This document shows positions 3,731-57,892 of a stretch of 64,000 nucleotides of DNA, in pieces; positions within the stretch are counted from its first letter, which is position 1; each line of letters begins with the position of its first letter. This DNA is from Halapricum desulfuricans. Its GTDB lineage: Archaea > Halobacteriota > Halobacteria > Halobacteriales > Haloarculaceae. The notes under the pieces were generated by a model. That model searched no databases, was not told where the DNA came from, and saw nothing but the letters and a program-made list of their open reading frames with translations. The translations under genes and the position numbers were made by a program. Location of the stretch: assembly GCF_017094505.1 (NCBI RefSeq), contig NZ_CP064787.1, forward strand, positions 1,798,001 to 1,862,000, given 5' to 3'.

Positions 3731-4249
3731 TCACTCGTCGATCAGTTCTTCGAACTCCGGCAGGATGTCCTCGTCCGTGTCCCCGCGGAACTCGTTGCTG
3801 TCTACGTCGTCGTCCGTGTCGTTTCGGCCTTCTTCGACTGTGTCGTCACCTTCCTCGTCGGCCTCGCTCTCTTCGGCGACAGACGTCTCCTCGTCTTCTT
3901 GCTGGCCTTCCTCCTCGATTTCCTCGATCTCGAGAACTTCGAGCGGGATGTTCTCCAGTCGCTGGCCGATCTCCTTGCGGGCGATCCGGGCCGCGTGCTC
4001 GTCGCGTTCGACGTTGAACACCGTCATCTCCAGTTCGAGGGCGACGAGGCTCTCGTCGGCGGCGATGAACGCGGGCTCGAGTTCTTCCCCGCAGTGGGGA
4101 CAGTTCCGGCTGCCCATGTTGATCTCGACGTAGTTGAGGTCGGGGTTGAGCATCTCGCCGGTCTTGGAGATGGCGATCCGGACCGCTTCGTCGGCCGTTT
4201 CGACGTCGTAGACCGGAACGGCGGCTTCGACGACAACTCGACAGTTCAT
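3731..4249 (-). CDS. DUF555 (UPF0212) family protein
   Basis: A 172-residue protein. Residues 1 to about 110 form the archaeal DUF555 domain (start MNCRVVVEAAVPVYDVETAD), with a single CPHCGEE knuckle near residue 50. The final 60 residues are a highly acidic, probably disordered tail (EEIEEEGQQEDEETSVAEES and beyond). The biochemical role of the family is unknown. A TATA-like motif (TTCATATCG on the coding strand, about 4272-4280) is centred 26 nt before the ATG, as expected for a leaderless haloarchaeal mRNA. It is divergent from the DNA glycosylase gene. Confidence 0.85.
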   Translation of the reverse strand: MNCRVVVEAAVPVYDVETADEAVRIAISKTGEMLNPDLNYVEINMGSRNCPHCGEELEPAFIAADESLVALELEMTVFNVERDEHAARIARKEIGQRLENIPLEVLEIEEIEEEGQQEDEETSVAEESEADEEGDDTVEEGRNDTDDDVDSNEFRGDTDEDILPEFEELIDE

Positions 4250-36869: not shown

Positions 36870-37682
36870 CTAGATGAACGCGAGTGGGACCATCAGCGCG
36901 ACGCCGGAAGCGACACCGACAATCAGTTCTCGCCGCCCGCCGCCGGGCAGCCCCTCTCCCTGATCGAGCGCTTCCGGGATGAACTCCGTGAACACGAGAT
37001 AGATCATCGCACCGGCGGCGAACCCGAAGCCGAAGGGCAGAAATTCCCGGGCGACCCGGACGAACGCGAACGCGATGACAGCCCCGATCGGTTGCGGCAG
37101 ACTGGAGAAGACCGCCCAGCCGACCATCCGCCACTCGCCGACGCCCATCGATCGCAGCGGGATCGAGATCGCGATCCCCTCGGGAACGTTGTGGATCGAG
37201 ATCGCGACCGTCATGAATATCGCCAGCAGCGGAACGAGTTGCCCGGCCACGACAATACCCTCGACGCCCTCGAAGCCCAGTTCGGCGAAGGAAACCCCGA
37301 CCGCGATCCCCTCGGGGAAGCTGTGAACGGTCAGAATCCCCAGTATCAGGACGAGTTTCTTGAAATCCGCCTCCTCGTACTCTCTGGGGTCAATGTCGCT
37401 GTCGGAGAGAATTCGGTGGCTCACGACGACCAGCACGACGCCGGTGAGCAGTCCGGCGACGAGCTTGGGGACCGGCTGACTGCCGCCGTTTTGCAGTCCC
37501 TCGAAGATCAACCCGAACACCGACGCCGCGACCATAATCCCCGACGCGAACCCCCACAGCCCCACGTTCCAGCGGTCGCCGATCTTCTCGACCAGGAAAA
37601 ACGGGATCGCACCGAGCCCCGTCGCCAGCGCGGTGATCAACCCCGCGACGAACACCAGCGTCAGGTTGAACCAGAGATCCAT
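36870..37682 (-). CDS. ZIP-family divalent metal transporter
   Basis: A 270-residue transporter with eight membrane helices. The metal path motifs HSFPEGIAVGVSF (helix 4) and HNVPEGIAISIPL (helix 5) are both intact, and a His/Asp-rich loop (SHRILSDSDIDPREYEEADF) lies between helices 3 and 4. It should import Zn, Fe or Mn. CTTAAGT (about 37707-37714) is a TATA box 28 nt before the ATG. Two tandem metalloregulator-like boxes lie just upstream of it (37735-37766), consistent with metal-responsive control. Confidence 0.9.
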   Translation of the reverse strand: MDLWFNLTLVFVAGLITALATGLGAIPFFLVEKIGDRWNVGLWGFASGIMVAASVFGLIFEGLQNGGSQPVPKLVAGLLTGVVLVVVSHRILSDSDIDPREYEEADFKKLVLILGILTVHSFPEGIAVGVSFAELGFEGVEGIVVAGQLVPLLAIFMTVAISIHNVPEGIAISIPLRSMGVGEWRMVGWAVFSSLPQPIGAVIAFAFVRVAREFLPFGFGFAAGAMIYLVFTEFIPEALDQGEGLPGGGRRELIVGVASGVALMVPLAFI

Positions 37683-37734: not shown

Positions 37735-37766
37735 TTTGGCCGACCTAAGTCGTTCGGTCGGCCTAA
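37735..37766. promoter_or_regulatory. Tandem DtxR/SirR-type operators before zip
   Basis: Two 14-bp sites, TTTGGCCGACCTAA (37735-37748) and TTCGGTCGGCCTAA (37753-37766), each differ at one base from TTAGG-N4-CCTAA. Their centres are 18 bp apart, and together they form the palindrome GGCCGACC...GGTCGGCC. They lie upstream of the TATA box of the ZIP gene, a position that may suit activation or blocking of TFB binding. Confidence 0.6.
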
Positions 37767-47980: not shown

Positions 47981-47996
47981 TTTTGGCAAGCCTAAA
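47981..47996. promoter_or_regulatory. DtxR-type operator overlapping the GT2 promoter
   Basis: TTTTGGCAAGCCTAAA differs at one base from the palindrome TTTAGGC-N2-GCCTAAA. It overlaps the probable TATA box (TAAAATAT, 47993-48000) that lies 29 nt before the GT2 start. By analogy it should be a metal-dependent repressor site. Confidence 0.5.
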
Positions 47997-48024: not shown

Positions 48025-48708
48025 ATGAGCGAGTACACCTTCGACGACCTCGCGGTCGTCATGGGAACGTACAACGAGGAGGCGGCGATCGGCACAGTGC
48101 TCGACGATATCGAGCGCGTGACCGACGGGCGGGCGTCGGTCGTCTGTGTCGACAGCTCCAGCGACCGAACACCGGAGATCGCCCACGAGAGGGGCGCGCG
48201 CGTCATCGAGCAGGAACCGCAGGGATACGGCGTCGCCGTCGAGCGCGCGCTGCGCGCGGCCGACCGGCCAGTCGTGGTCACGACTGACTGCGACGACACC
48301 TATCCGATGGAGCGACTGTCGGACTTCCTGGCGGCGATCAACGACGGCGCGGACGTCGTCAGCGGCGACCGCCTCTCGCGCGGGGCCGAGACGATGCCGC
48401 GGTTCAACCGGCTCGGCAACCGCCTGTTCGCCGCGATCGCGAGCGCGCTGGTCGGCCGGCGCATCCGCGATACGACGACGGGGATGCGCGCCTACCGGAA
48501 GTCCGTCATCGAGGACATCGAGTGGACCGAGAACACCGGCCTCTCGGCGGAGTTGCTGTTGCGACCGCTGTGTCGGGGCTACGACGTCCGCGAGATCGAG
48601 ATCGACTATCGGGAGCGTGCGGGCGAGACGACGCTGGACCCGGTCTCCGGCGGGGCCGAGATCGCCGGCTCGATCCTGCGGGTCGGGATGCAGGAACGAC
48701 TGCGGTGA
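48025..48708 (+). CDS. GT2-family glycosyltransferase (dolichyl-phosphate sugar synthase-like)
   Basis: The ATG at 48025 (MSEYTFDDLAVVMGTYNEEA) gives 227 residues. The GT-A fold shows in VVMGTYNEEAAIGTVL, VVCVDSSSDRTPEIA and VVTTDCDDTYPMERL (the metal-binding DxD), plus RNRLFAAIASALVGRRIRDT-like and TTGMRAYRKSVIEDI segments. It should transfer a sugar from a nucleotide donor to dolichyl phosphate or a lipid. Most family members that act on dolichol have membrane anchors; this one has none, so it is peripheral. The promoter carries a DtxR-type box. Confidence 0.8.
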   Translation: MSEYTFDDLAVVMGTYNEEAAIGTVLDDIERVTDGRASVVCVDSSSDRTPEIAHERGARVIEQEPQGYGVAVERALRAADRPVVVTTDCDDTYPMERLSDFLAAINDGADVVSGDRLSRGAETMPRFNRLGNRLFAAIASALVGRRIRDTTTGMRAYRKSVIEDIEWTENTGLSAELLLRPLCRGYDVREIEIDYRERAGETTLDPVSGGAEIAGSILRVGMQERLR

Positions 48709-48763: not shown

Positions 48764-49381
48764 TCACTCGTCCGGCCCGCGCTGATACGAGTCGAGACCG
48801 CCGGGATGGCCGGGCGGGTTCTCCAGTCCGACCAGCGATCCGCCGGTCGGCGACGAGTAGAAGGCAAAGAGCAGCTCGTTGATCAGGTAGTATCGGACGC
48901 GCTCTCGCTCGCTCCCGTCGGGATCCGGCTCGCTGTCGTCCAGTCCGTACTCGTCGAACACGTCCTGTCTGGTCTCCCGGTCAAGTTCGGCGAACGGCCG
49001 ATCGTCCCAGTGGCGGGCGTACTCGTCGAGCCGTCGGGCGGCCGCCCGGACGCCGTCAAAGTACGCCGATCGGTCCTGGATCCGGCCCACGACGTAGCTC
49101 TCGACGAACGAGTCGATCCCCGTCACCCCCTCGGGGTACAGCGCCTCGGCGGCGGCGACGATCGTCTCGCGCCCTCCGGGGTCGTCCCGATCCGTCGGCC
49201 CGTCGGCGGTCTCGTCGCCGAGATCGTCCCACGCCAGCGCGCCGAGTCCGGCGGCTCCGACGCCGGCCGCACCGAGCGCGATCACCGCGTCCCGTCGCGT
49301 GAGACGCGGGGTGTCGTCTTCCGCTCCGTTCGCCTGCTCGTCAGTCTCGTTTGTCACGGACTCGTCCGTCTCGTTCGTCAT
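48764..49381 (-). CDS. Gluconate 2-dehydrogenase subunit 3-like protein (Tat)
   Basis: A 205-residue protein. After an acidic head comes a twin-arginine signal (LTRRDAVIALGAAGVGAAGL), then the gluconate 2-dehydrogenase subunit 3 domain: VAAAEALYPEGVTGIDSFVE, FAELDRETRQDVFDEYG and RVRYYLINELLFAFYSSPTG, with GPDE at the end. Family members escort and export a GMC or FAD-containing dehydrogenase subunit, but no such subunit is adjacent. Its start overlaps the stop of the membrane glycosyltransferase by 4 nt (ATGA), placing it last in the iron-transporter operon. Confidence 0.82.
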   Translation of the reverse strand: MTNETDESVTNETDEQANGAEDDTPRLTRRDAVIALGAAGVGAAGLGALAWDDLGDETADGPTDRDDPGGRETIVAAAEALYPEGVTGIDSFVESYVVGRIQDRSAYFDGVRAAARRLDEYARHWDDRPFAELDRETRQDVFDEYGLDDSEPDPDGSERERVRYYLINELLFAFYSSPTGGSLVGLENPPGHPGGLDSYQRGPDE

Positions 49382-51441
49382 TGTTCGGTCACCTCGAACG
49401 TCGTATGCAGAAACTGCCCCCGGCGCGTCTCGTCCGGCACGTAGGCGGCCGCACCGTCGCAGCGATGTGCCAGCTCACACAGCTGGAGTCGCGGCGACAG
49501 CGCGCGCGTCGTCCCGTCGCCCGTCTCGACCGGCAGCGAGAGCGCGTAGCTGAACCCGGCCCCGGTCCCGTAGTCGACGAACAGCTCGAGATCGACCGTC
49601 GCGCGCCCCTCGACCGGGACGCGTACCGGTTGCGCGATCCCGGGGCCGTCGAGCGTGGCCGCTCCGTCGCCCACCGCCAGTGCGAGCGCGAGCTCGTCCC
49701 CGTCCGCGGCGACCGCCGTTCGCTCGCGGCTATCGTCGCTCTCCAGCACGATCGACACGCTCTGGGCGTACGTCGGCAGGCCGGCGGCGATCGAGAGCGA
49801 GACTTCGTCCCCTTCGGCGAGGCGTATCGGCCGGAGTCGCGGCTCGACCGGCTCGCCCGCGATCGGCGGCCACGGGTTCCGGAAACTGTACCGATACAGG
49901 TTCCGATCCAGGAACGAGTCGACCACCTCGAAGGGGCGCTCCTCGAGCGCGTAGACCGCCGGCCCGTCGTAGCCGGGCTCGTTCAGGAGTGGCTGGAAGG
50001 GGTGGTTCAGCCACGGGCCGTACGGCTGGGGGAGAAAGACCAGCGCGTTCTCGAAGGACTGCTCCTCGAAGGGTTCGTAGGCGGCCTCGTAGTGGTCGGT
50101 GACCGCCCGGTTGCGATCGATGGGGTCGGCCGCGGTCGTGACGACCGCCGCTCCGCCGACCGCGGCGACGACCGCCGCGAGCGCTAGCGACGCCGCCAGC
50201 GCCTTGCGCGGATCGAGCCGCCGGTCGAGCGCCGTCCACGCGTACGAGCCGCCAGTCCGGAGCGCGAGCGCCGCGAACAGCGACAGCGGCACGAGCAGGT
50301 CGAAGTGGTAGTACGGCCCGAGGGAGGCGATCAGCCCGTCGCCCGGGTCGGCGATCTCACCGAGGATGTTCAGCGTCCCCCAGAAGTACGCCTCGCCGAC
50401 CGGGATCGAGACGACCAGCCCGGCGAGCGCAAGCCGTCTCGGCGTCCGGCGGCGGAGGGCAATTGCGAGCCCGACAGCGGCGGTGGCGACCCCGAGCAGG
50501 CCGGCCGGAGCCCAGTCTCTCGCGAACGTCTCCAGCGCGCGGGCGTTCGACCGCGCGGCGAGCTCCGGGGTGTACTCGATCTCGCGGCCGAGCAACTCGC
50601 GCGTGCCGAACCCGACCCCGTCTCGCGGGGCGAACGCGTGATAGGGAAACTCCAGTGCGGAGCCGGTGACGACGGCGTTGTACCCCAGCGCGGCGGCGAC
50701 CCCGACCAGCCCGACGGCCGCGACGGTCACCTGCCGGAGCCACACGTCGCGCTCGCGGGTGCGCAGCGTCCACAGCGCGTGGAGCACGAACGGGGCGGCG
50801 AACAGCACGGCGGTGTAGGGCCGGGCGAAAAACGCCAGCCCGATCGCGCCCCCTGCGGCCGCTGCGAGCCGGCGGCTCCCGGTCCGGTCGGCCCGGAGAT
50901 ACGAGAACGCGAAGAGCAGGTTCAGCAGCGTCGTCGGCGCGTACGGCAGAAAGGTTGCCGCGTTGACCAGAAACAGCGGCGAGGCGAGCACGACGACGCC
51001 GGCGAGCAGTCCGGTCGGGCGGTCGAACAATTCCGCACCGATCGCGGCGACGAGCGCGACGATTCCCGCGCCGACGAGCGCGAGCGTCGCTCGCGGCACC
51101 CCGAGCGCGAGCGCCGGCGCGTACAACGCCGGGACGACCGGCGAGTACTTCGAGTACATCCCCTCGGAACTCTCGACGAAGAACCACGGCCGGAACGCCT
51201 CGGGGACGGGCGGTCGGAGGAACAGCTGCCCGTCGAGCAACATCCGGGCCTGCTGGAGGTAGACGCCCTCGTCGTGGTTCAGCGAGTGGTAGGGGAACAC
51301 CCGCGTCGCGAGCACGAGAACGGTCGCACCGCCGATCGCCACGAGCAGTGCGACCGCTATTCGCCACCGCGTCTCGGGATCGCGCGTCTGCTCGCGGACA
51401 GTGGCGAGCAGACGGCGTGCGGTCGTCTCGACGCCCGCCAT
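49378..51441 (-). CDS. GT39-like membrane glycosyltransferase with C-terminal exported domain
   Basis: A 687-residue protein. The first 460 residues contain about eleven helices of the PMT/ArnT (GT39, GT-C) type, with the catalytic-loop acid motif LNHDEGVYLQQARMLLDG near residue 55. The C-terminal 220 residues are extracytoplasmic, beta-rich and acidic. It should use a polyprenyl-phosphate sugar. The ATG start at 51441 overlaps the stop of the ABC ATPase gene by 1 nt; a GTG 3 nt upstream is an alternative. It is also coupled to the following subunit-3 gene, so it lies inside the iron operon. Confidence 0.8.
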   Translation of the reverse strand: MAGVETTARRLLATVREQTRDPETRWRIAVALLVAIGGATVLVLATRVFPYHSLNHDEGVYLQQARMLLDGQLFLRPPVPEAFRPWFFVESSEGMYSKYSPVVPALYAPALALGVPRATLALVGAGIVALVAAIGAELFDRPTGLLAGVVVLASPLFLVNAATFLPYAPTTLLNLLFAFSYLRADRTGSRRLAAAAGGAIGLAFFARPYTAVLFAAPFVLHALWTLRTRERDVWLRQVTVAAVGLVGVAAALGYNAVVTGSALEFPYHAFAPRDGVGFGTRELLGREIEYTPELAARSNARALETFARDWAPAGLLGVATAAVGLAIALRRRTPRRLALAGLVVSIPVGEAYFWGTLNILGEIADPGDGLIASLGPYYHFDLLVPLSLFAALALRTGGSYAWTALDRRLDPRKALAASLALAAVVAAVGGAAVVTTAADPIDRNRAVTDHYEAAYEPFEEQSFENALVFLPQPYGPWLNHPFQPLLNEPGYDGPAVYALEERPFEVVDSFLDRNLYRYSFRNPWPPIAGEPVEPRLRPIRLAEGDEVSLSIAAGLPTYAQSVSIVLESDDSRERTAVAADGDELALALAVGDGAATLDGPGIAQPVRVPVEGRATVDLELFVDYGTGAGFSYALSLPVETGDGTTRALSPRLQLCELAHRCDGAAAYVPDETRRGQFLHTTFEVTEQ

Positions 51442-52559
51442 CACTCCGCGGGATACCAGGCCAGCGAGTGATCGGCTTCGAGTTCGATACAGACGCGAGT
51501 CCCGTGGTCGAATTCCGTCGCGTGGTTGTGCTGACAGTGAACCACGTCGCCGGAATCGAGTTCGACCCGGTAGACGAACGACGGGCCGGTGTACTGGCGG
51601 TGGACGACCTCGCCGTGGGTACTGGGCCCGGGGCAGGGTATCGCCCGGAGGTCGTCCGGACGGACCAGGACCTCGATTTCGGCACCGCGATACTCCTCAA
51701 TCGAGCCGTCGAGCCGGTCGTCGTCAAGCAGCCCAAGCGACGTGTCGACGCCGCCCTCGACGACGGTCCCGGTGAGGAAGCTCGCCTGTCCGAGGAAACT
51801 TGCGACGAACCGCGACTCGGGGTGGCCGAACACCTCCTCCGGGCGGCCGACCTGTTCGAGGCGGCCGTCGTTCATGATCGCCACCCGGTCGGAGATCGAC
51901 AGCGCCTCCTCCTGGTCGTGGGTGACCGATACCGCCGTCACGCCGGCGGCCTTGAGGATCCGGCGGACCTCCTCGCGCATCTCCTCGCGAAGCCGCACGT
52001 CCAGATTCGAGAACGGCTCGTCCAGCAGGAGCACGTCCGGCTCCGGGGCGAGCGAGCGGGCGAGCGCGACCCGCTGGCGCTCCCCGCCCGAGAGGCTCTC
52101 GGGGCTGCGGTCAGCGTACCCCTCGAGATCGACGAGTTCGAGCAGCTCCGCGACGCGCTCGCCGTCGTCCGCCTCGAGCCCGAAGGCGACGTTCTCGCCG
52201 ACGGTCAGATGCGGGAACAGGGCGTACTCCTGAAAGACCAGGCCCACGTCGCGCTGTTCGGGCGGCGTCGCGTCTCGCGCTCCGGCGACGCGCTCGCCGC
52301 CGATCGTGACCGTCCCCTCGGACGGCGTCTCGAGCCCGGCGATCATCCGCAGCGTCGTCGTCTTGCCACAGCCGCTGGGGCCGAGCAGCGTCACCAGTTC
52401 GCCCTCGCGGACGTCGAGCGAGACGTTCTCGACGGCGCGCTCGCCGCCGAATCGCTTGGTGACGTCGGCCAGCTCGAGGACCGGCTCGCCGAACGACTCG
52501 CGCTCTGGCGTCGTTTCGACCGTCTGTTCGACCGTCGCTATGGTATCATTCCTTGACAT
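51441..52559 (-). CDS. fbpC: Iron ABC transporter ATPase (FbpC-like)
   Basis: A 372-residue ATPase: Walker A LLGPSGCGKTTTL, Q-loop VFQEYALFPH, signature LSGGERQRVALARSL, Walker B VLLLDEPFSNLD and switch SVTHDQEEALSI. The last 110 residues form a TOBE-like region (EIEVLVRPDDLRAIPCP, then VVHRQYTGPSFVYRVELDSG). The layout is that of the FbpC/CysA class. The first 14 nt overlap the permease gene. It energises uptake of ferric iron with the next two genes. Confidence 0.87.
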   Translation of the reverse strand: MSRNDTIATVEQTVETTPERESFGEPVLELADVTKRFGGERAVENVSLDVREGELVTLLGPSGCGKTTTLRMIAGLETPSEGTVTIGGERVAGARDATPPEQRDVGLVFQEYALFPHLTVGENVAFGLEADDGERVAELLELVDLEGYADRSPESLSGGERQRVALARSLAPEPDVLLLDEPFSNLDVRLREEMREEVRRILKAAGVTAVSVTHDQEEALSISDRVAIMNDGRLEQVGRPEEVFGHPESRFVASFLGQASFLTGTVVEGGVDTSLGLLDDDRLDGSIEEYRGAEIEVLVRPDDLRAIPCPGPSTHGEVVHRQYTGPSFVYRVELDSGDVVHCQHNHATEFDHGTRVCIELEADHSLAWYPAE

Positions 52560-54180
52560 CGTATCGCTCCCGTCCGAGTATCACGAGCATCGACAGTGCC
52601 GAGATGCCGATCAACACCAGCGCCGGTACGGCCGCCTGACCGTACGCCGCGGCCTCCTGTACCTGCCAGATGTAGGTGACCAGCGTCTCGAAGCCGAACG
52701 GCCGCAACAGAAGCGTCGCGGCCAGTTCCTTCATGCTGGTGAGAAAGACCAGCGCGGCCCCGGCGACGATGCCGGGCATCACCAGCGGCAGGACGACCGT
52801 CCGGAAGGCCACCAGCGGCGGTTTGCCGAGCGTCCGGGCGGCCTCGAGCAGTTGCGGATCGACCTGCAGGATCGAGGACCGGGTCGTCCCGACCGCCTGG
52901 GGGAGAAACCGGACGACGTACGCGAACACCAGCACCGCCAGCGAGCCGTAGAGAAACGGCGTGGCGTTCAGCGCTACCGACAGCAGGCCGAACCCGACGA
53001 CGACGCCCGGGACGGCGTAGCCGACGTAGCTCGCCCGCTCGGGCAGCGACGAGAGCCGTCCGTCGCCGCGGGCCGAGAGATACGCGAGCGGCAGCGCCGC
53101 GAGCACGGACGCCCCCGCCGCCAGCGCGGAGGCGGTCACCGAGTTCCAGGCGAACTCCCACTGGAAGTCGACGGCCGCACCGGCCAGCTCGGGCGTCGAA
53201 CGGCCCAGCCACGCGAACAGGATCGCCGGCGGCAGCGCCAGCGCCAGCGCTGCGACGGCGAGCGGGAACAGCGTCGCCACCCAGCGCCACCGACCCAGCC
53301 GAACGACGCCGGGGCGATCCGTCCCGCGGTTGACGTACGCGGAGGTCTCGCCGCCGCGCTCGATCCGCGATTCCGCGAGCAGGATGACGACCGTCAGCGC
53401 GACCAGCAGGATCGAGAAGATCGACGCGAAATCGACCTGCCGGGCGGTCGTGCGCACGTAGATGATCCGGGTGAACACGTCGAACTGCATGATCGCCGGC
53501 GTCCCGAAGTCCGACAGCGTGTACAGCGCGACCAGCAACGCACCCGCCGCGATTCCGGGCTTCAACTGCGGGAGGGTGACCCGCCTGAACGCCTCCAGAC
53601 GAGTGTGATTGAGCGTCCGGGCGGCCTCGACGGTCCGGCCGTCGATCGACAGCAGCGACGCCCGCGTCGTGAGAAAGACGTACGGATAGGTGAACAGCGT
53701 CAGCACGATCACCGAGCCGACGAGCCCGTAGATCGAGGGGATCTGCTCGACCCCGAGCGGTGCGAGTGCGTCGGCGAGCTCGCCTCGCGGCCCGAACGCC
53801 GAGACGAACGCGAACGCGCCGATGTAGCTGGGGACCACGAGCGGCAGCGCGGCGAGCACGGTAAACAGCCGCCGGAAGGGTAGATCCGTCTGTGCGGTCA
53901 ACACCGCGAGCGGGACGCCGATCAGGACCGACAGCGCCGTCACCGCGACCACGAGCACGACCGTGTTGAGGAAGATGTCGAGGGTCGTCTGGCGGAACAG
54001 GATGTCGAAGAAGCGATCGAGTGGGACCGATCGAGCGCTGTTGAGCACCCACAGAAGCGGCGTCAGCACTGCGACCGCGACCGACCCCGCAAGCAGCGCC
54101 AGCACGAGCGTCTGGACGTCGCCTCTGGAGCGGCGCTTGAGACGGCGGGACGCGGCGTCGATCCGGTCGCTGACTGACAT
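52546..54180 (-). CDS. fbpB: Iron ABC transporter permease, two-domain (FbpB-like)
   Basis: A 544-residue permease with about twelve helices in two homologous halves, each with a binding-protein-dependent transport motif. The first is EAARTLNHTRLEAFRRVTLP and the second EAARTLGKPPLVAFRTVVLP, the loops that dock the ATPase. This duplicated arrangement is typical of the FbpB and ThiP families. It lies 8 bp after the substrate-binding gene and overlaps the ATPase gene. Confidence 0.9.
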   Translation of the reverse strand: MSVSDRIDAASRRLKRRSRGDVQTLVLALLAGSVAVAVLTPLLWVLNSARSVPLDRFFDILFRQTTLDIFLNTVVLVVAVTALSVLIGVPLAVLTAQTDLPFRRLFTVLAALPLVVPSYIGAFAFVSAFGPRGELADALAPLGVEQIPSIYGLVGSVIVLTLFTYPYVFLTTRASLLSIDGRTVEAARTLNHTRLEAFRRVTLPQLKPGIAAGALLVALYTLSDFGTPAIMQFDVFTRIIYVRTTARQVDFASIFSILLVALTVVILLAESRIERGGETSAYVNRGTDRPGVVRLGRWRWVATLFPLAVAALALALPPAILFAWLGRSTPELAGAAVDFQWEFAWNSVTASALAAGASVLAALPLAYLSARGDGRLSSLPERASYVGYAVPGVVVGFGLLSVALNATPFLYGSLAVLVFAYVVRFLPQAVGTTRSSILQVDPQLLEAARTLGKPPLVAFRTVVLPLVMPGIVAGAALVFLTSMKELAATLLLRPFGFETLVTYIWQVQEAAAYGQAAVPALVLIGISALSMLVILGRERYDVKE

Positions 54181-54188
54181 CGTCGCCG

Positions 54189-55412
54189 CTACAGCACTCC
54201 CGCCTCGGTCAGCAGGTCCGTCGTCGGACCGGTGTTCGCCAGTTCGGTCAGGTCGATATCCGGCGTCTCCAGTTCGTCGATCGTCGGCAGGTCACCGACC
54301 GGCTGGACGCCGGGCAGCATCGGGTAGGCGTAAGTCCGGGTGGCGAAGAACTCCTGGGCTTCAGCCGAGAGGAGGTGGCGGACGAACACGTCCGCGAGGC
54401 CGGCGTTCTCGTCGCGATCGAGCAGCGCGGCCCCGGAGACGTTGACCAGCGACCCGGCGTCGCCGCGGGTGAAATGCAGGTCCAGCGGTCGATCCGGCGA
54501 GCCGTTGAGCACGCGCAGCGCGTAGTAGTGGTTGGCGAACCCGGCCGCCAGTTCGCCGGTCGAGACCGCATCGGAGATCAGGAACTCGTTGTCGTAGGAC
54601 TGGATCCCGGCCGCCTGCATGTCCTCGAGCCACTGCAGGGTCGCGTCCTCACCCTCCTGGAGGCGCATCGCGGTGATGAAGTCCTGGAACGCCCCGTAGG
54701 TCGGTGCCCAGCCAGTCGCGCTCTGGAGCGGATCGGCGTCGGGGAACTCCATCACGCTGTCGGGGAGATCGCTCTCGTCCAGTTGCTCGGTGTTGTACGG
54801 GACTGCCCGGGCACGGCCGGCGATACCCACCCAGTTGCGGTCCGGCTGCACGAACGCCTCGGGGACGGGCTCGACCGTCTCTTCGGTCAACGGGCGGGTC
54901 GCATTCTCCTCGACGACGGTCCCGAGCGACCCCGCGCCGATCGAGATGAACAGGTCCGCCTGCAGCTGGCCGGCCTGTGCCTCGTCTGCGATCTGGAGGG
55001 CGAGCTCGCTCGACGGTTTGGACTGAGACCTATACGAGAACTCGGGATAGACCTCCTCGAGTACGTCGAACAACTGGAGGTAGAGCCCGCCTTCACCGCC
55101 GCCGAGATAGATCGAGAGTTCGCCCGAGAGGTTCGGGAGGTCCTCCATCGAGCGCCCGCCCGGAGCCGGCCGTCCCTCGAGGATGGCCCCCGATCCCTGG
55201 AACTCCGAGAGCGCCATCGCTTCCATCGCCGCGTCGGCCGCGTCGTAGTCCGGCGCTCCGTAGTCACCGCTGTCGCCACCGAACAGCCCGGTACAGCCGG
55301 CGAGCGCGCCCGCCGCCGCGACGCCGCTCGTCGCCAGAAAGCCCCGTCGTGACGAGCGAGTCCCCGGACGCTCCGATCGATCGCCGCACGTGCTGTCGTC
55401 GTTTGTCATCAT
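54189..55412 (-). CDS. fbpA: Iron ABC transporter substrate-binding lipoprotein (FbpA-like)
   Basis: A 407-residue protein starting MMTNDDSTCGDRSERPGTRS. A twin-arginine signal (SRRGFLATSGVAAAGALAGC) ends in a lipobox, so it is anchored outside the cell. The rest is a type II periplasmic-binding fold (LSGELSIYLGGGEGGLYLQL, FISIGAGSLGTVVEE, YALRVLNGSPDRPLDLHFT) like ferric-ion binders of the Fbp/Fut class. A promoter with a DtxR-type operator stands right before it, so iron is the probable substrate; thiamine carriers are the nearest alternative family. Confidence 0.85.
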   Translation of the reverse strand: MMTNDDSTCGDRSERPGTRSSRRGFLATSGVAAAGALAGCTGLFGGDSGDYGAPDYDAADAAMEAMALSEFQGSGAILEGRPAPGGRSMEDLPNLSGELSIYLGGGEGGLYLQLFDVLEEVYPEFSYRSQSKPSSELALQIADEAQAGQLQADLFISIGAGSLGTVVEENATRPLTEETVEPVPEAFVQPDRNWVGIAGRARAVPYNTEQLDESDLPDSVMEFPDADPLQSATGWAPTYGAFQDFITAMRLQEGEDATLQWLEDMQAAGIQSYDNEFLISDAVSTGELAAGFANHYYALRVLNGSPDRPLDLHFTRGDAGSLVNVSGAALLDRDENAGLADVFVRHLLSAEAQEFFATRTYAYPMLPGVQPVGDLPTIDELETPDIDLTELANTGPTTDLLTEAGVL

Positions 55413-55415
55413 TGG

Positions 55416-55440
55416 TTTAGGCTGGCCTAAAGGATATAAG
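55416..55440 (-). promoter_or_regulatory. fbp promoter: TATA box and DtxR-type operator
   Basis: On the coding strand CTTATATCC (55440-55432) is the TATA box and TTTAGGCCAGCCTAAA (55431-55416) a palindrome fitting the DtxR/SirR/Idr consensus at every position. The operator lies between the TATA box and the start codon, where a bound repressor would block transcription initiation. Confidence 0.82.
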
Positions 55441-55454
55441 TCTGGCGGTTCGTC

Positions 55455-56618
55455 TCAGTCGTCCGCGAGCGACCGGGGCGATCGCGTGGCCTCTAGGCCG
55501 TCGGATTCGATCGTCTCGAGACAGTCGAGCCAGTCGTGCATGTACTCGCCGACGTACCGGAGGAACTCGCCGTTCTCGTAGTCGGCCGTCTCGGCGGCCA
55601 GCAACTCCTCGGCCATGCGCTCGAAGGCGTCGGCGAAGCTCTCGGCCTCGGCAACGCGGTCAGTCAGTTCCCAGACGTGTTCGTTCAGTTCGAGGCCGGC
55701 GACCTCGTTGGCCAGGTCCCCGAACGTCGAGCGCGGGGCCTTGTTGTGTTCACACAGCGGCGCGCCGTTATAGATCTGCTTGCCCAGCAGGTCCGCCGCG
55801 CGCTTCAAAAAGACGCCGCTCCAGATGTCGTCGAACCGGCCGACGTCCCAGGGATTGTCGTCCATCGGGAGCTGGTAGAACGCCGGGACGACCTCGCGTC
55901 TGAACGCCAGATTCATCGAGCAGACCGTCAGGTACTGACCCGGCGCGGCCACGAAGTCCTCGCCGTAGTCGTCCGCGTCGAGGCGAGTCTGGGCCTGGCC
56001 GTCCAGGTCGCCGTCCATCAGGATCCGGACCGCGTCCAGGTCGGGAACGTTCGTCCACAGCCCCTGGGAGGCGACGACCTCCGAGACTGTCGTCGTCTCC
56101 GTTCGGACGGTCTCGTCCATCGCGCTGTAGGGATACCCGCGCGGGTACAGGTCTGTCTCGGTCTGATAGAGGACGTTCACCCACCGCTCGTCTGACTCGA
56201 CGGCCTCGATCGCGCCCCGGTACTGGAGGTTGTCCATGTGCGTCCCGAAGAAATCGCTGTCCTCGTGGGGCAGGGTGTCGTCGTCGATGAACACGCCGTA
56301 CTCGAACTCGCCCGCCCAGAGGTACAACAGACCGAAACTCGTCTGGGCGTGACTCGCCTCTGGAATCAGGTGGTCGTACTCCTCGATCCCCTGCTCGGCG
56401 AACCACCGTTCGCGGGCGCTCCCGTCGAAGACCTCCCCTGTGACGTCCAGTTCATCCAGCATCGCCTCCATCGCGTCGGTGTCACAGAAGTCCTCCGTGA
56501 CCAGCACGAAGTGCAGTCGATCCGTGTCGAACCCGTGACGGCGGGCGTTGGCCACGTACTCACGGACGCACTCGTACTCCCGGATCGTCGGCACGATCAC
56601 GCAGATGTCATCTGTCAT
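55455..56618 (-). CDS. GT75-like reversibly glycosylated polypeptide (glucan-protein synthase type)
   Basis: A 387-residue protein resembling plant RGP/UDP-arabinopyranose mutases and the archaeal proteins called alpha-1,4-glucan-protein synthases. It starts with an N-terminal GT-A-like sheet (ICVIVPTIREYECVREYVAN). The nucleotide-sugar motif is YGVFIDDDTLPHEDSDFFGT near residue 112, with MDETVRTETTT, MNLAFRREVVPAFYQL and RFDDIWSGVFLKRAADLLG after it. It has no signal or membrane segment. Family members self-glycosylate or isomerise sugar nucleotides. It is preceded by a DtxR-type operator and lies 42 bp downstream of the fbpA promoter, so it is in the iron-controlled island. Confidence 0.75.
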   Translation of the reverse strand: MTDDICVIVPTIREYECVREYVANARRHGFDTDRLHFVLVTEDFCDTDAMEAMLDELDVTGEVFDGSARERWFAEQGIEEYDHLIPEASHAQTSFGLLYLWAGEFEYGVFIDDDTLPHEDSDFFGTHMDNLQYRGAIEAVESDERWVNVLYQTETDLYPRGYPYSAMDETVRTETTTVSEVVASQGLWTNVPDLDAVRILMDGDLDGQAQTRLDADDYGEDFVAAPGQYLTVCSMNLAFRREVVPAFYQLPMDDNPWDVGRFDDIWSGVFLKRAADLLGKQIYNGAPLCEHNKAPRSTFGDLANEVAGLELNEHVWELTDRVAEAESFADAFERMAEELLAAETADYENGEFLRYVGEYMHDWLDCLETIESDGLEATRSPRSLADD

Positions 56619-56634
56619 CGGTTACTCCCCATTG

Positions 56635-56650
56635 TTTAGGGCAGCCTAAA
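56635..56650. promoter_or_regulatory. DtxR-type operator before the GT75 gene
   Basis: TTTAGGGCAGCCTAAA is a near-perfect palindrome, 24 nt before the start codon on average and overlapping the TATA position (CTTTAGG). It matches TTAGG-N4-CCTAA fully. Confidence 0.78.
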
Positions 56651-56691
56651 GAGTGTGTCGTTGTCGGTCGCCTCGGACAGCGGACGGACGA

Positions 56692-57102
56692 TCAGTAGCG
56701 AGCCGCTACGAACGCGAAAAACGCACCGTTGAGCGAGAGAAACGCGACGACCAACAGTCCGAGTGCCTCGTCAGCGGCCGGGTCGGCGGCCAGAATCGCG
56801 AGCGCGACGACACCGAGCGCGACCAGCCCACCGAAGAGGGCGGCGTCGGCGTATCCGTTCCAGGCGTCTTCGAGGACGGCTTCGACGCGCGCCAGCCACC
56901 ATCGATCGTCGGGCTGCGGGATCGTCGCCGCGCCCTCGACGCCGACTGCGACGAGCACTGCCGCGATCCCGCCCCCGAGGAGGGCAAACGCGAGCCAGGG
57001 GGGCGCGACGCCGGTTCGACACAGCACGAACAGCGCAACGAAGGCGACAGCACCGCTCCCACTGAGGAGGCCGACGAGCGCGTGTCGCACGCCTTCGCGC
57101 AT
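56692..57102 (-). CDS. Small four-helix membrane protein
   Basis: A 136-residue membrane protein with helices HALVGLLSGSGAVAFVALFV, WLAFALLGGGIAAVLVAVGV, ALFGGLVALGVVALAILAA and LGLLVVAFLSLNGAFFAFVA, and a soluble loop (IPQPDDRWWLARVEAVLED) between the second and third. Function unknown. It begins 6 bp after the coiled-coil gene, so the pair forms an operon, and it ends 41 bp before the GT75 operator. Confidence 0.7.
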   Translation of the reverse strand: MREGVRHALVGLLSGSGAVAFVALFVLCRTGVAPPWLAFALLGGGIAAVLVAVGVEGAATIPQPDDRWWLARVEAVLEDAWNGYADAALFGGLVALGVVALAILAADPAADEALGLLVVAFLSLNGAFFAFVAARY

Positions 57103-57108
57103 GCTCGG

Positions 57109-57639
57109 CTATCGGTCGTCGTCGCCGTTCTCGACCTGCTCTCTGATCGACTCGAGCTCGGACTCGACGTCGACCGACGGCCCGGTCTCGACCGGTTCGT
57201 CCGTCTTGCCGAGCTGGTCTTCCAGTTCGGACTGGAGCCGCCGGGCGTCTTCGAGCAGGTCGCGCGCCTCGCTGTCCGGCGGCTGGCTGTCGAGCGCCGA
57301 CTGGACGTCTTCGAGCGCGTTCTCGAGACGCGACAGCGCCTTCGAGCCGGCGCGCTCGGCGCGCTGTGACACCGAGTCGCCGCCGTCCTGTGTGTCGACC
57401 CCGTCGGCCAGCCGGATCGTTCGCTGGAAGAGCCGCAGCGCACGGACGTTCGTCTCGAGAAGCAGTATCGCGCCCGGAATCGCGACTTCGCTGGTGAACT
57501 GTCTGAGTTCGTCGGCCCGAGGCGGTCGCGGGGCCGCGAGCGGGCGTCGCTCGCGTTCGAGCTGGTCGCGCAGCTGCGCGACCGCCCGGGTCAGTTCCGC
57601 GAGTTGTCGCTCGACGTCAGGAGGGGCGTCGTCGGCCAT
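57109..57639 (-). CDS. Coiled-coil protein, unknown
   Basis: A 176-residue acidic protein starting MADDAPPDVERQLAELTRAV. Helix-rich throughout: an N-terminal coiled coil (VERQLAELTRAVAQLRDQLE), a middle hydrophobic segment (EVAIPGAILLLETNVRALRL), and a second coiled coil (ALSRLENALEDVQSALDSQ, ARDLLEDARRLQSELEDQLG). No family with known function is recognised. It shares an operon with the four-helix membrane protein and probably associates with the membrane through it. Confidence 0.68.
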   Translation of the reverse strand: MADDAPPDVERQLAELTRAVAQLRDQLERERRPLAAPRPPRADELRQFTSEVAIPGAILLLETNVRALRLFQRTIRLADGVDTQDGGDSVSQRAERAGSKALSRLENALEDVQSALDSQPPDSEARDLLEDARRLQSELEDQLGKTDEPVETGPSVDVESELESIREQVENGDDDR

Positions 57640-57710
57640 ATCGTCCGTTCGTTCCCCACCACCCTAAATCCGACGCGGCCTGTCCCCGCGGCGCGGGGAA
57701 CATCCGAACG

Positions 57711-57734
57711 CTTTTATCTTTAGGCGTACCTAAT
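57711..57734 (+). promoter_or_regulatory. Promoter with DtxR-type operator for a 49-residue ORF
   Basis: CTTTTATC (57711-57718) is a TATA box, followed at once by TTTAGGCGTACCTAAT (57719-57734), which fits TTAGG-N4-CCTAA. The start codon follows at 57743, 28 nt after the TATA centre. Confidence 0.78.
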
Positions 57735-57742
57735 CCACGGCG

Positions 57743-57892
57743 ATGGCAGATACCCGCACGCCCGACGACGCGGTCGAGAACTGGCCGTCGGTGTCGGCAC
57801 ACTTCCCGACCGATGACAAGACCGTCTTCACCGAGGACGGCAACCCCGACGCCTGGATCGCGACGGACACGGCTCTCGAACCGCCGCGATAG
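57743..57892 (+). CDS. Small (49-residue) protein under an iron-type promoter
   Basis: The ORF reads MADTRTPDDAVENWPSVSAH, FPTDDKTVFTEDGNPDAWIA, then TDTALEPPR. It is acidic, cytosolic and cysteine-free. The promoter and operator directly before it are better than most in the window, so this short frame is very probably a gene. The NPDAWIATDTA ending recalls a group of small haloarchaeal proteins whose function is unknown. It would be expressed when iron is scarce if the operator binds an iron-dependent repressor. Confidence 0.65.
   Translation: MADTRTPDDAVENWPSVSAHFPTDDKTVFTEDGNPDAWIATDTALEPPR

Follow-up and report, generated by a model that had tools for sequence, protein, structure and literature searches.

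A conserved haloarchaeal locus that probably places an Fbp-type ferric iron importer and a dolichol-phosphate sugar route under one DtxR-type repressor

In this study, we describe a gene cluster in a stretch of 64,000 nucleotides of the Halapricum desulfuricans genome (the window) that is probably a conserved haloarchaeal iron-limitation locus, in which a DtxR-type repressor would govern both an Fbp Fe3+ importer and a dolichol-phosphate sugar route. The boxes, their conservation, the gene order, the co-occurrence of the genes and the enzyme families on which this reading is built are all taken directly from the sequences.

Results

Iron boxes and gene order

Scanning the window for TTAGG-N4-CCTAA gave exact matches (TTAGGNNNNCCTAA) at 55417-55430, 56636-56649 and 57720-57733. 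Each lies upstream of a start codon, at a distance of 4 nt for fbpA, 17 nt for the GT75 gene (RGP) and 9 nt for a 49-aa open reading frame. The features of the locus are as follows.

47982-47995, plus strand: iron box TTTGGCAAGCCTAA, one mismatch, 29 nt upstream of the GT2 start
48025-48708, plus strand: GT2, dolichyl-phosphate hexose transferase (NCBIfam equivalog NF041391, 399.9 bits, cut-off 375)
48764-49381, minus strand: GADH3, gluconate 2-dehydrogenase subunit 3-like (PF13618, E=1e-5)
49378-51444, minus strand: GT-C membrane glycosyltransferase, PMT_2 + DUF7846 (PF13231, E=6e-6; PF25230)
51441-52559, minus strand: fbpC, ATPase, ABC + TOBE_2 (PF00005, PF08402)
52546-54180, minus strand: fbpB, permease (PF00528, E=3e-25); order contiguous in relatives
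54189-55412, minus strand: fbpA, Tat-type lipoprotein, Fe3+-binding protein (PDB ferric-binding proteins, E~1e-43; NHYY motif)
55417-55430, minus strand: iron box TTAGGCCAGCCTAA, exact, between RGP and fbpA
55455-56618, minus strand: RGP (GT75), NDP-pyranose mutase-like, first in the co-directional cluster (PF03214, E=3.9e-16)
56636-56649, minus strand: iron box TTAGGCTGCCCTAA, exact, upstream of RGP
57720-57733, plus strand: iron box TTAGGCGTACCTAA, exact, upstream of the 49-aa micropeptide
57743-57892, plus strand: 49-aa DUF7331-like micropeptide (PF24018, 25.7 bits, just below the gathering cut-off of 27)

A TATA-like stretch abuts the box directly in the promoters of fbpA (TTATATCC followed by TTTAGG) and of the micropeptide (CTTTTATC followed by TTTAGG), and inspection of the sequence at the RGP box revealed no obvious separate TATA. 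Chance would supply about 0.018 exact boxes per 64 kb (P(>=3) ~1e-6). The whole genome (2.94 Mb) holds seven against an expected ~0.85, three of them in the window's island, while the reversed pattern is found nowhere in the same 2.94 Mb. The three operators named in the original prediction are thus exact and above chance; its island was drawn too small, since the conserved one-mismatch box at 47982-47995 also belongs to it. Window matches with up to two mismatches occur at chance level and were counted only if conserved in relatives. Taken alone the box before GT2 would be meaningless, and it counts because 61 of 66 GT2 promoters in relatives keep one with at most one mismatch (26 exact; control 0); in the remaining 35 boxed promoters the right half is always CCTAA and the left half TTTGG or TTCGG.

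The other four exact sites of the genome front feoB, feoA-feoB, cysteine synthase A (cysK) and a GMC oxidoreductase gene. Because two of these four precede feoB and feoAB, the box is taken to read iron, and the palindromic TTAGG...CCTAA at iron-transport promoters (fbpA, feoB, feoAB) is that expected of a DtxR/IdeR-type operator. The site at cysK is directly upstream of the gene (locus L010, 3968-3981) and could connect a lack of iron with sulfur or Fe-S metabolism. Elsewhere in the window, a tandem pair of boxes with one mismatch each and a spacing of 18 bp (37735-37766) precedes the gene of a ZIP-family transporter (36870-37682, minus strand; PF02535, E=1e-16) and may mark a further DtxR-type metal promoter.

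RGP, fbpA, fbpB, fbpC, GT-C and GADH3 form a co-directional run from 56618 down to 48764, with 4-nt overlaps between fbpC and GT-C and between GT-C and GADH3, and the convergent GT2 gene faces it.

Conservation in relatives

Promoters were surveyed in 80 named RGP loci covering 24 or more haloarchaeal genera, which are phylogenetically non-independent, with a box defined as having at most one mismatch. Such a box was present in 79 of the 80 RGP promoters (76 exact) and in 60 of 78 fbpA promoters, the reversed control giving 0 in both, and in 28/28 UPF0104 promoters; an exact box was present in all 17 DUF7331 promoters, where that gene was found in the named loci, and in 25 of 55 GADH3 promoters. 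Over 1.57 Mb, 245 exact boxes stand against 0 reversed-control sites, and the box occurs in 112 of 116 relatives, or 88/88 among genomes of good quality. The closest named relative is H. hydrolyticum, whose locus (L077) has 91% identity. The outcome that was to refute the prediction, promoters of orthologues in relatives lacking the boxes, did not arise, and the conservation of the boxes strongly supports the earlier claim that the GT75 gene and the micropeptide share a DtxR-type operator set with iron transport; that this set responds to iron is what we infer.

The gene order is kept as well. In the named loci, fbpA directly follows RGP in 78 of 80, the GT-C gene is co-directional in 77, GT2 is present in 66 and GADH3 in 55, and RGP is immediately preceded by a UPF0104 (TIGR00374 flippase-like) gene in 28. 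No box was found at the GT-C gene itself (0/77 in named loci), which relies on the upstream promoters. RGP, fbpA and GT-C also remain together where fbpB lies elsewhere with a box of its own, as in Halorubrum, Natronomonas and others. Of 116 relatives, 92 encode an RGP orthologue. Presence of RGP and GT-C agrees in 115 of the 116 genomes (both in 91, neither in 24, one discordant genome that is 71% complete), where the last few absent genomes, itemised in neither table, are taken to coincide; Fisher's test gives P ~6e-24 with kinship ignored, and the absences are spread over several genera. Nine loci, mostly of Haloarcula and Halomicroarcula (L079-L105, at positions of about 6.8 kb), also have a gene for a FhuD-like Tat lipoprotein with an iron box ~3 kb upstream of RGP.

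Homologues of the micropeptide were found in 93 of 116 relatives. We call it DUF7331-like because it is homologous to box-bearing members in relatives, its PF24018 score falling short of the cut-off. The iron-box subfamily shares FTE-GN-D-[GA]WIATD, and its promoters in relatives often carry a further box, a weaker one, 26-27 bp upstream; two of the three other DUF7331 genes of the Halapricum genome were inspected and show no box within two mismatches. A DUF7547 gene (57109-57639, minus strand) forms a conserved pair with the adjacent DUF7331 gene, in Halapricum and in many other genera. The coxC gene beside the micropeptide has no counterpart near DUF7331 in the other loci, and we treat it as a neighbour only.

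The importer and the sugar enzymes

Homology to ferric-binding proteins, together with the Tyr-Tyr ligand pair of an NHYY motif that is conserved in relatives, marks the substrate-binding protein as FbpA-type. Like the bacterial FbpABC/HitABC Fe3+ importers, the system has a substrate-binding protein with a Tyr-Tyr motif, one fused permease and one ATPase; unlike them, its binding protein is a lipoprotein with a twin-arginine-type signal, and it is flanked by glycosyltransferase genes.

The GT75 protein is homologous to the solved enzymes PDB 7yua/7xpr (E=2e-23), which we take to be MtdL because their residues are numbered as in the MtdL paper. The key residues of MtdL (DDD motif, Arg159, Asp195, Arg257, Asp260 and His287; PMC9937993) are all among the 10 of 12 mapped residues that are identical, and they vary little or not at all among the haloarchaeal proteins. 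The sugar pocket differs at two positions: Asp87, which is essential in MtdL (PMC9937993), is replaced by His90, a His in all of them, and Gln229 by Met235. Judged by its sequence, the protein is likely a mutase-like enzyme whose sugar pocket has changed; given these two replacements, its activity or substrate may differ from those of MtdL. Its AlphaFold model is of low confidence (pLDDT 60, shallow alignment). MtdL and the plant UDP-arabinopyranose mutases (GT75/RGP) share with it the DDD motif, the autoglycosylated Arg, the metal-binding His and most of the conserved Asp residues, but they act in antibiotic or cell-wall synthesis, whereas here the setting is iron uptake.

The multi-span GT-C protein conserves NHDE in its first outer loop, and although a sequence-profile search of PDB returned no match, Foldseek with its AlphaFold model (pLDDT 81) matched AglB/OST, ArnT, AftA and ALG9 at E ~1e-4 or better; acidic loop motif, membrane spans and fold together place it among the GT-C glycosyltransferases. 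UPF0104 is represented in Halapricum by part of a longer open reading frame elsewhere in the genome, with no boxed flippase gene found there. In Haloferax volcanii, HVO_1859, a UPF0104 protein that shares its family name with the boxed gene of relatives, rises 11.6-fold on iron starvation (PMC11349517). The conserved dolichyl-phosphate hexose transferase and GT-C enzyme, joined in many relatives by a flippase-like protein, point to lipid-linked glycosylation outside the cell. The suggestion that uptake is linked to sugar-nucleotide chemistry pointed in the right direction and was incomplete, these being the partners it lacked.

Discussion

The identity of the repressor, the direction of the iron response, the order of the pathway, the sugar and the acceptor are proposed here from sequence. 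While ferrous iron is sufficient, a DtxR-family repressor would occupy the TTAGG-N4-CCTAA boxes beside the TATA box or start site; iron shortage would release it from them, and the Fbp-type Fe3+ ABC importer, the DUF7331 micropeptide and the lipid-linked sugar route would be made. GT75 would prepare an NDP-sugar, probably as a pyranose/furanose mutase, GT2 would move the sugar onto dolichyl phosphate, a flippase (encoded by the boxed UPF0104 gene in many relatives and unboxed in the Halapricum genome) would turn the lipid-linked sugar outward, and the GT-C enzyme would transfer it to an acceptor outside the cell, which may be the lipoprotein FbpA or some other protein at the surface. A narrower version, in which iron starvation leads a furanose-type sugar made by GT75 to be placed, via dolichyl phosphate and the dedicated GT-C enzyme, on the Fbp lipoprotein or close by, and in which this glycosylation is intrinsic to iron uptake, we put forward tentatively and regard as doubtful. 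FbpA as the glycan acceptor is a guess, and a comparison of the N-terminal linkers of FbpA among relatives found no conserved Ser/Thr-rich stretch common to all. What weighs against the scheme is the lack of a boxed flippase gene in Halapricum, the two altered residues of GT75, the absence of a box at the GT-C gene and the YIM A00010 genome discussed below.

The proposed route resembles the AglD-AglR-AglS dolichol-phosphate mannose route of Haloferax volcanii (PMC3871713) in its dolichyl-phosphate loader, flippase-type protein and outside transfer enzyme, a likeness of functional analogy alone. It differs in that a GT75 is included, the Fbp importer is joined to it, iron boxes are present, and GT2 scores above the cut-off of a separate family, NF041391. 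The same organism alters its glycans with salt via a separate gene set (PMC3871713), a precedent for glycosylation that depends on the environment. That example also lends some weight to a different reading of our locus, in which the iron boxes are real and the glycosylation genes, rather than aiding uptake directly, bring about a general surface change (S-layer or lipid glycans) that shares the repressor. A further point for it is Halobacteriales archaeon YIM A00010 (L150): RGP, GT-C and GT2 are retained there although fbpA and all boxes are missing, so the glycosylation module is able to persist independently of iron control. Yet fbpA sits between RGP and GT-C in nearly all loci, and the trio is intact even when fbpB leaves, so that we consider a shared repressor without a direct part in uptake unlikely, while giving it serious weight.

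It is rather improbable that the sugar genes make an extracellular iron ligand or reductant, whereby an exported sugar, oxidised by GMC/GADH3, would yield an aldonate-like Fe3+ chelator or reduce Fe3+, and FbpA would import the iron. What speaks for this is the GADH3 gene in the cluster, the exact boxes at close to half of its promoters (the 25 of 55 given above), a GMC + GADH3 pair in or near the cluster in many relatives (within the RGP locus itself in Natrinema, Halorubrum and others), and the Halapricum GMC gene elsewhere in the genome (L011, 2413-3996, minus strand) with its own exact box at 4008-4021. However, many Haloarculaceae loci have GADH3 without a box or a GMC partner, a GT-C enzyme passes a lipid-carried sugar to an acceptor instead of exporting it free, and the GMC assignment holds at the superfamily level only.

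Returning to a lipid-linked route under iron control, the genome encodes four DtxR-family proteins that bear on the choice of regulator. In an alignment with IdeR/DtxR, one of 146 aa (C1:2846159) keeps the Met, Cys, Glu and His that make up the iron-type metal site, and on these residues it would be the best candidate for the box-binding repressor. As the box fronts feo and FbpA genes, and an IdeR/DtxR homologue with iron-type ligands is present, an iron-sensing repressor is the simplest reading. Another DtxR-family protein, of 225 aa (C1:574113), has an MntR-like Asp in its metal site; with four family members to choose from, the boxes might through such a protein answer manganese or another metal, but their targets are ferrous (feoB, feoAB) and ferric (fbpA, FhuD-like) transporters, none of the exact sites fronts an Mn transporter, and this we hold to be very improbable. 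That non-functional boxes cluster here by chance, for which nothing but the shortness of the motif speaks, we reject on the conservation test, with near-universal retention in promoters against a control of 0, and on the P(>=3) above, seven sites in the genome facing none in its control.

Haloarchaeal DtxR-family iron regulons have been described before (Idr1/Idr2 in Halobacterium; Idr, SirR and TroR in Haloferax volcanii; Leyn and Rodionov 2015), and our locus is alike in the type of regulator, in having operators at iron-transport genes and in the several paralogues per genome. Their described members are siderophore/iron ABC transporters and siderophore synthesis; a glycosylation set and DUF7331 go unmentioned in the literature covered, and on that limited basis an iron-boxed lipid-linked glycosylation set may be new.

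In conclusion, metal homeostasis and protein or lipid glycosylation, usually separate fields in archaea, are joined here by a regulatory and genomic link that is conserved across the order. The conservation of this pairing across haloarchaea suggests that iron shortage alters the decoration of the cell surface. Through this link, an orphan archaeal GT75, a dolichyl-phosphate hexose transferase and a GT-C enzyme so far uncharacterised each acquire a role that can be put to the test, and the micropeptide family DUF7331 is assigned to the iron response. Since Haloferax volcanii encodes both the RGP and the DUF7331 families, genetics on this link is possible at once.
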